From Caldifarciminota bacterium (GTDB taxonomy: Bacteria > Hydrothermota > Tepidihabitantia > Tepidihabitantales > Tepidihabitantaceae): a stretch of 64,000 nucleotides of DNA. The notes under the pieces were generated by a model. It searched no databases. It saw only the letters and a list, made by a program, of their open reading frames with translations, and had not been told where the DNA came from. Where the stretch lies: the NCBI GenBank assembly GCA_026418295.1, contig JAOABP010000004.1, positions 62,001 to 126,000 of the forward strand, in the 5' to 3' direction. Position 1 is the first letter of the stretch; every line of letters starts with the position of its first letter. The position numbers and the translations under genes are program-made. Of the stretch, positions 5,284-30,565 are shown in pieces.

Positions 5284-6210
5284 TTATCCTCCCTTTGCGA
5301 CCGCCGAAACTTCTTCTGCTTTTCCAATTGGCTGGACATTCAAATCGGACGCTATCCTTTTTACCAGCCCGCTGAGAATCTTTCCTGGTCCGACCTCCCA
5401 GAAAAACTGGCACCCCAACTCCCGGGCACTGTAGATGGTATCAATCCAGCGAACTGGAGAAACCAGCTGGCGGGCAAGGTTACGCCGGATTTCATCTGCC
5501 GAGTACGCGGGTCTGCCAGTAACATTCATAATCACCGGAAACTTGGGATCTGCCAGCTCAAATTGCCCGAGATAGGCAGCAAACTCGCTTGCTGATTCCT
5601 CAAGCAATGGTGAATGAAATGCTCCGGATACCGGCAGCGGCACCACTTTTAACGCACCTTTTTCCCTTGCTGCGCTCATTGCCAATTGTACTGCTTCCGG
5701 TTCGCCGGAAATGACGGTCTGTTTCGGCTCATTGTAATTTGCGGGCACGACCACCCCTGTCACCTCCCTACATATCTGTTCAACTACACTGCTTTCAATA
5801 CCGATGATTGCCGCCATCATACCCGGCCTTTTTTCACCTTCTCTAAACATCAATTCAGCCCGCCTCTTAACCAGCTTCAAAACTGCTTCAAATTCAAGGC
5901 AACCGGCAGCATAAAGAGCCGAATACTCCCCCAGAGAATGCCCGGCAGCGAGAATCGGTGTAATGGCATCCTTCAAAACTGCCAGAACTGCCATTGAATG
6001 CACAAGAATGGCAGGTTGAGTATACCGTGTCTGACGGAGCTCTTCCTCCGGTCCTTCAAATGATATCCTCCTGATAGGAATCTCAAGTACCTCTTCAGCC
6101 CGTTCGTATACCACCCGCGCCGCCGCAAAATTATTATAAAGATCCTTGCCCATGCCGACATACTGCGACCCCTGACCGGGGAATAAAAACCCCACATGAT
6201 TATTCATCAT
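5284..6210 (-). CDS. fabD: malonyl-CoA:ACP transacylase
   Basis: [18 protein letters not shown]...[16 protein letters not shown]. Confidence 0.95.
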
Positions 6211-6295: not shown

Positions 6296-7171
6296 TCAGA
6301 TAATATGAATTTCTATCCGGGAATGTTTTGGTTGAGTGCCGGGAATAAACCGGGGCACAACCTTTAACCCATCGGAAGGGAAAACTACTCTTCGCCGAAT
6401 TTCGGTTTCTAATACCCGGCAGCGATCGGCGGAAAGCTGTTCCTTCTCACTGTAAACATAAACTACAGTTTCCTTTCTAAACCGTTCCTTAATCAGATTG
6501 GCAACTTCATCCAGGCGGGCGTTCGCATCGGAAGTAAATTCTGCGCCATTGGGAATGAAAAGCATATCGGCAGCAATGGAAACAATCCACTCGTTTTTCT
6601 CCTGCCACACGACCGCATTTATCTTCTGTGGCTCACAACTAATGCGCGTCTGATTACCATGCGCATCATAGGCACTGAAGGTAAAACTGTAGACATCTCC
6701 GGTTGCTATTGGCTCACCTGCATCATTCCTTCCGTCCCAAATAATTACTGCCGGAGGTATCCCCTTTCCCTGAACCCGACGTACTCTCTCCCCCAGTGAA
6801 TTGGCGATTTCCAGTTCCCATGATGCTACGCGTTTTTCAAATTTGGGCAGGAAAACCAGAATGTCACCCTGAACCAGTGTCCTTTCTACAGGCACACGGA
6901 GAAAGGACGATTTAATGAAATGCTGAGGAATGGTAAGCGAATCAATTGCCTGCAACAGCCCGTCGTCAAATATATAGCTCCCCGGCGCCAGCAGGTCATT
7001 AAGCGGCGCCCACGGATCAAGCTGTGGAGGAAAAAACAGTTTCTGATCGCTTATTTTCATTTCCGCTTCGCCGGTGATGAGTTCCTCTCCTAATGCATGT
7101 TCAGCAGGTGGTTTCTGCTGCGAACTGTCCGGACTTTGCGCAAAAAGCAACAATACAAATACCAGATTCAT
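6296..7171 (-). CDS. envelope protein with FlgD-like Ig segment and OmpA-like C-terminus
   Basis: signal peptide; NSLGERVRRVQGKGIPPAVIIWDGRNDAGEPIATGDVYSFTF; C-terminal RLDEVANLIKERF... Confidence 0.65.
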   Translation of the reverse strand: MNLVFVLLLFAQSPDSSQQKPPAEHALGEELITGEAEMKISDQKLFFPPQLDPWAPLNDLLAPGSYIFDDGLLQAIDSLTIPQHFIKSSFLRVPVERTLVQGDILVFLPKFEKRVASWELEIANSLGERVRRVQGKGIPPAVIIWDGRNDAGEPIATGDVYSFTFSAYDAHGNQTRISCEPQKINAVVWQEKNEWIVSIAADMLFIPNGAEFTSDANARLDEVANLIKERFRKETVVYVYSEKEQLSADRCRVLETEIRRRVVFPSDGLKVVPRFIPGTQPKHSRIEIHII

Positions 7172-26981: not shown

Positions 26982-27428
26982 TTGCAATTTGAAACCAGAA
27001 CCGCGGAATCGACGATTCTACTCGGCGAACGACTGGCACAGCTGCTGAAGCCGGGGGCGGTGGTTGCCCTCTACGGTGAACTGGGCAGTGGCAAGACCAC
27101 CCTGATCAAGGGTGTTGCCCGGGGTCTGGGGGTACGGGAACCGGTCCGCAGTCCTTCTTTTGTAATCATTACCGAATATGCCGGCCGGGTCCCGGTCTAC
27201 CACATTGATCTTTACCGGTTGAACAATGCTGAGGAGGCGTCTGCGGTCGGACTCGAGTCCTATCTGAGCTCAGACGGTGTCTGTCTCATCGAATGGGCCG
27301 AACGGGCGGAATCACTCCTGCCCGCGGCTACCATCCGCATCCGGCTGGAGGTTATTGCCGGCGGACGCCGGATTGAGATTGAAGGGTTAGCCCCGGAACT
27401 GATGCAGGAACTGAAGCAGTTCGGATAA
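26982..27428 (+). CDS. tsaE: tRNA threonylcarbamoyladenosine biosynthesis ATPase TsaE
   Basis: VALYGELGSGKTTLIKGVARGLGV...SPSFVIITEY...YHIDLYRL; TTG start. Confidence 0.93.
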   Translation: MQFETRTAESTILLGERLAQLLKPGAVVALYGELGSGKTTLIKGVARGLGVREPVRSPSFVIITEYAGRVPVYHIDLYRLNNAEEASAVGLESYLSSDGVCLIEWAERAESLLPAATIRIRLEVIAGGRRIEIEGLAPELMQELKQFG

Positions 27429-30323
27429 TCCGCCCTTCAGCGTCAGACTCTTTTCCGGCAGGGTCAGTGTAATTCTGCCCGCCTCCATGCTGACCGCCAG
27501 CACCTGTTTCTGACGACACAGGAGCCGGACCTGCGCCACCTGCAGAAGGTTTTCCACCGGGGACGGATACTTTCCAAACCGGTCCAGGAGTTCCGCCTTC
27601 AGGTCCGCCAGTTCCGCCAATGTCTCCAGACTCAGCAGTCGCTTGTAGAGCGCCAGCCGCTGGAGTCCGTCCGGAATATAACTTTCCGGAATATAGGCGG
27701 TAACATCAAGTTTGAGCCGGGGCTCAACCGGCAGCGTTTCGCCCTGCAGCCGGGCAAGCGCCGCGTTCAGCAGACGCTGATAAAGGTTGAGCCCGATCCG
27801 GACAACATGGCCATGCTGCTCGGTGCCGAGCAGATTGCCGACACCCCTGATTTCCAGATCCCGCATTGCCAGCCGGTAACCCGCACCGGGCTCGGAATAG
27901 GCAAGCAGCGCTCCCAGGCGCTGACGCGCTGACGCTGTCAGATCCTGCCGGGAGGAAACCAGGAACAGTGCATATGCCTGTTCGGTTGATCTGCCCACCC
28001 TGCCCCGGAGCTGATGGAGGTCAGCCAGCCCGAACCGCTCTGCCCGGTTGACAATCAGTGTATTGACATTGGGCAGGTCAAGCCCGGATTCGATGATGGC
28101 GGTCGAAAGCAGAAGCGGAAACTTTCCCGCAGCAAAATCAAGATAGATGTCCGCCAGCTTCCGGCCCGTCATTCGGCCGTGCGCCACCCGGAGCTGGACA
28201 TCAGGCAGGATACGCCGGAGCCGTTTCTCAATCTGCTCCAAGGTCTCAATCTCGTTATGGACAAAGAAGATCTGCCCCTGACGGTTAAGTTCCCGGTAAA
28301 CATAAATCCGGATCAGTTCATCATCCCATTCGGCAATTTCGGTCCGGACTTCCCTTCTGCCCGGCGGCGGGGTGTGGATCGGTGAAATGTCAATCAGTCG
28401 GGAGAGCGCCATATAGAGGGTGCGGGGAATGGGCGTGGCACTCAGGGTCAGGACATTGACATCCGCCCGGAGCTGACGCAGTCTTTCCTTCTGCCGCACC
28501 CCGAAACGGTGTTCCTCATCGATAATCAGCAGACCGAGGTTTTTGAACTGAATGTCCGGGGCAAGGAGCTGATGGGTGCCGATGACAATGTCCACCAGCC
28601 CCAGTTTCAAATCCCGGACAATCGCCTGCTGCCGCGAGCGGGGAGTAAAGCGGGAAAGCATTTCGATCCGCAGGGGGAAGCGCTCCAGCCGGGAGCAGAA
28701 GGTACGCCAGTGCTGATAGCAGAGAACAGTTGTGGGGACGAGGAGCGCCACCTGCCGGCAGTTGATTGCCACCTGAAAGGCAGCGCGGAGCGCAATCTCC
28801 GTCTTGCCGAATCCGACATCGCCACAGACCAGCCGGTCCATCGGCTGACCCCGGGTTAAATCCTGCCGGATTGCCTCCAGTGCCTGCAGTTGATCCGGGG
28901 TCTCTTCATACGGAAAAGATGCCTCCAGTTCCGCAAGCAGCACCGGATCCGCCGGCAGTGGGTCACTCCGGACCAGCAGACGCCGTGCCCGGTTTTCCAG
29001 CAGTGTCTGCGCATATTCGGCGCTTGCCCTTTCCGCCCGTGCCCTTGCCCGGAGCCAGCCCGTGCTCCCAAGCCGGTCCAGTTGCGGAGGGGAATCATCG
29101 CTGCCGATATACCGGTCAATCAATCCCAGATTGTCCACCGGTACATAAACCCGCGCATTGTCCTGATACTCGACTACCAGATAGTCCTTCTCTCCGCTCC
29201 CGCTATCCATCCGCCTGACCCCGGTAAATCTGCCGATCCCGTAATCCATGTGCACGACATAATCGCCCGGCTTTAAAGTCAGGAGGTTGTCAACCGGAAC
29301 ACCACGGAACCGGCGCCGGTGCAGACGCCGGACCGGTGTACCGTAGAGCTCGCGTTCGGTGAGCACTGTCCAGCGCTGACCTTCGCTGGTGAAGCCACTG
29401 CTCAGTCCGCCGACGAGATAGTCCGGACCCTCGCCGAGAAGTTTTTCCAGCCGGTGCCGGTGATGTTCGGAAACCGCTATAATCGTCCAGTGCCGGTTGC
29501 CGGCAGTAATCTCCTGGCGCAGGAGCTGAAAGTTGCCGCAATATACCGGCGCCGGCAGGTAGCCGAGGTCAATCGCATCCGGCACCTGCCCGCCCATCAC
29601 CACCTGCGGCTGGACTGCGGTAACCCGTTCCCCACCAATGAAAAGCGCATCCGCGGGCAGAAGGATGGCTGACGGCTTACCGGTAAATGATTTTACCTGA
29701 CGGGCATTGAGCACAATCCGGTCCAGTTGCTGGCAGGAACGCTGAGTCAGGGGATCAAAGGAACGTAATGAGACCAGAGTATTGTCCGCCAGTTCCAGCC
29801 GGACCGGTAGCAGGGCATCATCCGGGAAGATATCAATAATTCCGCCTCTTGACGCATACTCGCCCGGCTCGGTTACCATATCCACCCGCTCAAAACCGTG
29901 ATCTTCCAGCCAGCCGATCAGCGTCTCGAAATTCAGCTGACTGCCACGCTCGAGCTGCCGTTGACAGTCCTGGAAATTCCACTCGGGCGCCGGTGTCTCC
30001 AGTGCCGGCTCGGAAGCAATCAGGAGTGCGGGACCGCAAAGTGCCGGCAGCCGGCTGAGCACCGCCGGATCATCGGGTCGGAAATGAAGGACTGGGAGTT
30101 CCGGGAAAATTGCCCGGGCATCGGCGGTCAGAATTTCCACGTCCGGCTCAGCGGAGACAATCAGAACCACCACCCGTTCGAGCCGGCAGGCAAAAAAGCC
30201 GGCAAGCAGCAGCTGAACCGCAGGCGGAAGGGGGGTGATCCGCAGCGGCAAATCCGGTTTCAAGTGAGATATCAGATTGTCAAGCAGTGGATGCGTCAGA
30301 AAACGCTGGAAAAGAACCTGCAT
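27387..30323 (-). CDS. mfd: transcription-repair coupling factor Mfd
   Basis: GDYVVHMDYGIGRFTGVRRM; GDVGFGKTEIALRAAF; IIDEEHRFGVRQKERL; start set at Met 30323 (ORF track extends to 30488 through another gene). Confidence 0.93.
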   Translation of the reverse strand: MQVLFQRFLTHPLLDNLISHLKPDLPLRITPLPPAVQLLLAGFFACRLERVVVLIVSAEPDVEILTADARAIFPELPVLHFRPDDPAVLSRLPALCGPALLIASEPALETPAPEWNFQDCQRQLERGSQLNFETLIGWLEDHGFERVDMVTEPGEYASRGGIIDIFPDDALLPVRLELADNTLVSLRSFDPLTQRSCQQLDRIVLNARQVKSFTGKPSAILLPADALFIGGERVTAVQPQVVMGGQVPDAIDLGYLPAPVYCGNFQLLRQEITAGNRHWTIIAVSEHHRHRLEKLLGEGPDYLVGGLSSGFTSEGQRWTVLTERELYGTPVRRLHRRRFRGVPVDNLLTLKPGDYVVHMDYGIGRFTGVRRMDSGSGEKDYLVVEYQDNARVYVPVDNLGLIDRYIGSDDSPPQLDRLGSTGWLRARARAERASAEYAQTLLENRARRLLVRSDPLPADPVLLAELEASFPYEETPDQLQALEAIRQDLTRGQPMDRLVCGDVGFGKTEIALRAAFQVAINCRQVALLVPTTVLCYQHWRTFCSRLERFPLRIEMLSRFTPRSRQQAIVRDLKLGLVDIVIGTHQLLAPDIQFKNLGLLIIDEEHRFGVRQKERLRQLRADVNVLTLSATPIPRTLYMALSRLIDISPIHTPPPGRREVRTEIAEWDDELIRIYVYRELNRQGQIFFVHNEIETLEQIEKRLRRILPDVQLRVAHGRMTGRKLADIYLDFAAGKFPLLLSTAIIESGLDLPNVNTLIVNRAERFGLADLHQLRGRVGRSTEQAYALFLVSSRQDLTASARQRLGALLAYSEPGAGYRLAMRDLEIRGVGNLLGTEQHGHVVRIGLNLYQRLLNAALARLQGETLPVEPRLKLDVTAYIPESYIPDGLQRLALYKRLLSLETLAELADLKAELLDRFGKYPSPVENLLQVAQVRLLCRQKQVLAVSMEAGRITLTLPEKSLTLKGGLSELLQFLHQFRG

Positions 30324-30329
30324 AAAATT

Positions 30330-30353
30330 GAAGGGGGCATTGAAGCCCCCTTC
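30330..30353 (-). terminator. hairpin between the 23-aa peptide gene and mfd
   Basis: GAAGGGGGC / GCCCCCTTC 9-bp perfect stem, 6-nt loop, followed on the minus strand by AATTTTA. Confidence 0.6.
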
Positions 30354-30370
30354 CGGAATGACAGCGATTC

Positions 30371-30442
30371 TTACTTCTTTTTCGCCGTCTTCTTGACGGT
30401 TTTCTTCGCGGTCTTTTTTGCAGTCCGCTTCATGCAGGCCAT
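30371..30442 (-). CDS. 23-aa Lys/Thr/Ala-rich basic peptide MACMKRTAKKTAKKTVKKTAKKK
   Basis: SD GGAGGTACGA-ATG; promoter TTGACA-N16-TACTAT upstream; hairpin downstream; AKKT repeats like H1-type bacterial histone tails. Confidence 0.7.
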   Translation of the reverse strand: MACMKRTAKKTAKKTVKKTAKKK

Positions 30443-30471
30443 TCGTACCTCCTTTTTTGACCTGACAAGTA

Positions 30472-30499
30472 ATAGTAAACTTGCACATTTGTCTGTCAA
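30472..30499 (-). promoter_or_regulatory. sigma70-like promoter TTGACA-N16-TACTAT for the 23-aa peptide gene
   Basis: minus strand TTGACA (30499-30494), 16 nt, TACTAT (30477-30472). Confidence 0.55.
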
Positions 30500-30565
30500 G
30501 TAAAATCGCATCATCTCAGCAATTTCCTGCTTGATTTTCCGGATGCTGAAATTTATAATCACAGA

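Follow-up and report, generated by a model that had tools for sequence, protein, structure and literature searches.

Chlamydial Hc2 (HctB) varies in length through lysine-rich repeats and binds both DNA and RNA (PMC2848022). AlgP, an H1-like protein that is likewise rich in lysine, localises to polyphosphate granules, and peptides composed of its KPAA repeats bind DNA in vitro (PMC9239181).

Here we describe a mini-gene of the WOR-3 class, whose products share with Hc2, as well as with BpH1 and the Burkholderia H1-like proteins (PF07382, NF038052, NF038053), a repeat tail of Lys, Ala, Thr and Val. As in Hc2, the loci that we read encode short Lys-rich repeats and change in length by whole in-frame repeats. 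However, Hc2 comprises 165-237 aa and the WOR-3 peptides 17-86 aa, and unlike Hc2 and the H1-like proteins, those encoded next to mfd are almost devoid of arginine, and many of the WOR-3 peptides carry a cysteine near the N-terminus. The C-terminal KPAA tails of AlgP and PhaF are also disordered, Lys-rich repeats similar to the H1 C-terminal domain, but they are fused to a structured N-terminal domain, whereas the WOR-3 peptide consists of the tail alone. Two further types of protein are comparable in size or composition: bTHX, a small basic Lys-rich protein of about 26 aa, from which the WOR-3 peptide differs by its variable length, and the short Lys-rich proteins of the AURKAIP1/COX24 type (bS22/mS38).

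The window, i.e. the whole 64,000-nt stretch analyzed, derives from an assembly of 1.8 Mb with 97% completeness. The preliminary description of this DNA had placed a complete unit of about 170 nt on the minus strand, with a promoter, a GGAGG, 23 codons, a TAA and a 9-bp hairpin, and all of these elements are present at the positions it gave (Table 1). The T-run 3′ of the hairpin is short and abuts the likely start codon of mfd (ATG, 30323-30321), while tolB lies on the other side of the mini-gene. We regard mfd as a neighbor and do not think that it takes part in the function of the mini-gene. Between 30353 and 30321 of the minus strand, the likely mfd start follows the hairpin after 6 nt and lacks a Shine-Dalgarno sequence (SD); the spacing is similar in genus g2 and family f3.

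Table 1 Features of the mini-gene locus, with positions in the window
Feature	Position	Strand	Basis and details
Sigma-70-type promoter TTGACA-N16-TACTAT	30472..30499	-	Direct reading; 10/12 consensus match; -35 TTGACA begins at 30499, N16 spacer, -10 TACTAT finishes at 30472
Strong Shine-Dalgarno sequence AAAGGAGG	30448..30455	-	Direct reading; 5-nt spacer to ATG at 30442
23-codon gene MACMKRTAKKTAKKTVKKTAKKK and TAA	30371..30442	-	Direct reading, homologues and pN/pS
Intrinsic-terminator-like GC-rich hairpin and AATTTT tail	30330..30353	-	Direct reading; 9 pairs, 7 of them G-C; arms GAAGGGGGC and GCCCCCTTC, loop TTCAAT
mfd (transcription-repair coupling factor)	27387..30323	-	Pfam TRCF, DEAD, CarD_TRCF_RID, UvrB_inter

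ORF finders had been said to miss the gene or to extend it, and the mechanical ORF list indeed contains at this locus just a 63-aa extension starting at a GTG (30562-30371), with the 23-aa form absent and the mfd frame extended too far, to 1033 aa. The peptide consists mostly of Lys, Thr and Ala. Its lysine content is 43%. The window contains 50 combinations of a start and a stop codon that follow an SD and span 15-100 aa, and the runner-up among them has 17%, while 15 first-order Markov shuffled windows did not exceed 20%. The Lys-rich mini-ORF in the window is not a chance occurrence.

Since profile searches with peptide alignments were insensitive due to low complexity, loci were instead recovered via DNA similarity, SD-plus-ORF patterns and synteny; candidates from DNA and peptide searches, from regions around the matches, mfd or a HepT-like gene, and from the patterns were then read. 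Of 65 WOR-3-class genomes, 49 were found to contain a Lys-rich mini-ORF equivalent to that of the window. By family (f1 to f10 denote groups within the class), a Lys-rich ORF preceded by an SD occurs in 18/18 genomes of f1, 3/3 of f3, 4/5 of f4 (of which four were examined), 1/1 of f5, 22/23 of f6 and 1/4 of f9. The places examined in f2, f7, f8 and f10, which covered parts of the genomes, yielded none; given this result for f7, f8, f10 and most of f9, the mini-gene may not be class-wide. Examples of the peptides are MACMKRGVKKTAKKTAKKTAKKKKK (G002), MACAKKTTKKKTTKKKKE (f3), MPCMKKAKPKATKKVAKKGKKR (f4) and MPAKKKAKKKAKKKTTKKKK (f6); the copy in G008 is broken by Ns in the record. Length varies by KKxT/KKxA repeats, with orthologues of 54, 66 and 86 aa occupying the same site upstream of mfd (the 86-aa form in G007), and most mfd-linked lineages have a Met-x-Cys start. 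Outside WOR-3, a GTDB-wide search with the exact pattern turned up nothing beyond unrelated short ORFs (Deltaproteobacteria, Clostridia, Methanocorpusculum) and a single small basic protein of Neomarinimicrobiota.

The ORF first proposed from the window alone stays open in homologous loci, where the SD and the hairpin are retained along with it, and its substitutions show a strong synonymous bias; neither of the two refuting outcomes named in the preliminary description thus occurred. Close pairs within groups gave a pS of 0.55 and a pN of 0.07 (pN/pS 0.13), from pairs that are not independent and protein-guided alignments that favor synonymous counts in low-complexity sequence. When compared without protein guidance, in pairs of equal length or over the leading ~20 codons, differences at codon positions 1/2/3 numbered 18/21/67, and the nine differences within the L085/L086 pair fall on third positions only. 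The gene is conserved and under purifying selection at the amino-acid level, and its control signals are alike at two genomic sites that are unrelated to each other. That the 23-aa ORF is a real gene kept across the WOR-3 class is well supported.

Promoter, SD and hairpin, originally described for the window, were found to be kept in most copies. We scored promoters within 110 nt upstream of 44 distinct loci: in 18 f6-type loci, the best one is a TTGACA-N16-TATAAT matching the consensus at 12/12 positions, and TTGACA-N16/17-TATAAT-like sites reach 10-11/12 in 21 of the remaining 26 tabulated loci. Mononucleotide shuffles of the same 110-nt stretch seldom score as high as the real promoters; by itself, the promoter pattern is not specific. 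Nearly all homologous loci have an AGGAGG-like SD at a spacing of 4-5 nt, and nearly all homologues read have a GC hairpin 3′ of the stop codon, L083 and L117 being without one. As the hairpin was a selection criterion for the 44-locus table, the fact that all 44 loci have one does not count as independent evidence.

In f1, f3, f4 and f5 (23 genomes of one order), the unit precedes mfd in the same orientation, with differing genes on the opposite side. In f6, as well as in one genome of f9, it is located between nfeD-like and HepT-like genes, followed by the genes for a prepilin peptidase (pilD) and miaA, where the nfeD-like gene, the prepilin peptidase and miaA were recognized by reading the sequence. 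Genus g4 contains a further copy elsewhere, without a recognizable promoter. That the promoter-SD-ORF-hairpin unit recurs at differing sites points to an independent gene. Owing to low complexity, the case for homology of the mfd-linked and nfeD-linked sets is based on their control signals and N-terminus, rather than on an alignment.

Over the 44 loci, Lys accounts for 765 of about 1390 residues (55%), followed by A, T, V, R and P, with no Asp, 3 Glu and no aromatics. With this share of Lys, no aromatics and almost no acidic residues, a disordered polycation is expected. The resemblance to H1/Hc2 tails, suggested earlier from the 23-aa peptide, gained backing from the long orthologues upstream of mfd, which combine a repeat-tail texture with weak profile scores. 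The 86-aa orthologue matched Pfam HC2 with E=0.001 and NCBIfam hist_H1_lk_Burk with E=1.7e-4, both far under the curated cut-offs, its scores being 19.6 bits for PF07382 (cut-off 40) and 21.9 bits for NF038053 (cut-off 80); the window peptide had no match to the Hc2 and H1-like profiles PF07382 and NF038053. As the cut-offs for Hc2, Burkholderia H1-like proteins and bTHX are not reached, we describe the peptide as H1-tail-like, not as a member of these families. The likeness gains weight because the 54-, 66- and 86-aa same-site orthologues read like whole repeat tails, and it is one of texture, strongest in the long orthologues.

We propose that the locus forms a transcription unit of its own, with a single gene that encodes a microprotein, and that its near-consensus promoter, strong ribosome-binding site and terminator would provide, judging from their sequence, high expression. 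The product would be a short disordered polycation of AKKT/KKxT units, most likely coating or bridging nucleic acid by charge neutralization. Its site of action would be the nucleoid, where it would work like a linker-histone tail that stands free of any globular domain, probably with some RNA binding. Because H1-like Lys-rich tails bind DNA, and Hc2 also RNA, a free linker-histone tail is the best reading, and we lean slightly towards a DNA-binding (possibly RNA-binding), probably abundant disordered polycation of this kind. We infer its abundance, its DNA binding and a role in nucleoid compaction; at a length of 17-28 aa, however, the peptides might not bind DNA tightly unless present in very large amounts.

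G000-G002 and a number of further f1 genomes lack a canonical HU-type match (>100 bits). Most of them retain a single HU-family gene, which scores 84-90 bits and is IHF-like wherever its sequence was read, whereas no HU-family gene of G002 reached the threshold used. In the genome of the window, the only HU-family gene detected (L233, G000:C10:119300-120400) is IHF-like. The absence of canonical HU makes a nucleoid role attractive, as a correlation only, to which incomplete assemblies could contribute. We rejected the peptide as a replacement for lost HU: HU-bearing genera carry peptides too, some of them longer, and its presence in both kinds of genera argues against simple replacement. It is possible, although we are more inclined to doubt it, that these peptides form a new family of free-standing H1-tail microproteins, among the smallest bacterial chromatin proteins, and constitute a major nucleoid polycation of WOR-3, including the genera left with only an IHF-like HU-family gene. 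The strongly wired gene, present in most genomes of the class and missed or mis-extended by ordinary ORF calling, points to a candidate for an abundant protein of a lineage that is uncultured. As a putative natural minimal linker-histone tail that occurs by itself and varies in length through repeats, its product would allow a direct test of how charge and length affect DNA compaction.

A serious rival, which we nevertheless consider fairly unlikely, is a small basic ribosome-associated protein like bTHX or bS22, filling an rRNA cleft and expressed as strongly as other ribosomal proteins. Size and charge would suit such a protein, and the consensus promoter, together with the SD, points to strong expression. 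In addition, bTHX (TIGR04560) was above cut-off in 0/65 genomes of the class, so that its niche could be open. On the other hand, the window's genome has no bTHX match, nothing is conserved in the residue pattern beyond Lys spacing, lengths drift with repeat number, unlike those of ribosomal plugs, and the window peptide has no Pfam match; for AURKAIP1/COX24, this holds at E up to 10, in a test limited by the very short query. Further in favor of the ribosomal reading, the small basic protein of Neomarinimicrobiota (L123, about position 5778, plus strand; 29 aa, MPCGKKRKKKKMNTHKRKKRLRADRHKKK) begins with MPC, an N-terminus similar to that of the WOR-3 peptides; it has no Pfam match. We take it to resemble the AURKAIP1/COX24-type proteins; it lacks the KKxT repeat structure that the WOR-3 peptides have.

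The position directly upstream of mfd in one order would also fit a leader peptide or attenuator, in which translation of the Lys codons sets termination at the hairpin ahead of mfd. A gap of 6-8 nt separates the hairpin from the mfd ATG in genera g1 and g2 and in family f3, so that mfd may rely on read-through. However, the distance from hairpin to mfd spans 6 to about 217 nt among genomes, products reach 86 aa, mfd has no known lysine link, and the unit shows no constant link to one regulated downstream gene, being next to nfeD, the HepT-like gene, pilD and miaA in f6, and the second g4 copy standing at yet another site; we consider this reading distinctly unlikely. It is also improbable that the peptide pairs with some different polyanion instead of DNA, for instance as a granule peptide that binds polyphosphate or RNA. 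AlgP offers a precedent for polyphosphate granules (PMC9239181), and DNA, RNA and polyphosphate are not told apart by charge on its own, but none of the identified neighbors was recognized as pointing to polyphosphate or granules. Finally, a non-coding regulatory RNA with an incidental ORF is hardly credible in view of the strong codon-level selection. A sub-threshold match to RsmY covers the whole unit (27 bits, gathering score 57), but it recurs solely in the near-identical G001 copy, is absent in 14 other loci and leaves the GGA motifs of the model mostly unmatched, and the RsmY identity was rejected on these grounds.

Near the f6 locus of G037, we observed a second Lys-containing short ORF preceded by an SD, MKAMTISAQKKKTMKKNSKLR (L051, about position 7025, minus strand), of a type seen in none of the other loci read. 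PF05066 had no match in the window's genus. In f6, small proteins of 85-93 aa (L201, L204, L207, L209, L210, L213, L216, L219, L220 and L225) combine a Lys-rich N-terminal tail with a winged helix of the HARE-HTH type, a linker-histone-like architecture; the single protein that was tested matched PF05066 with E=3.8e-11.
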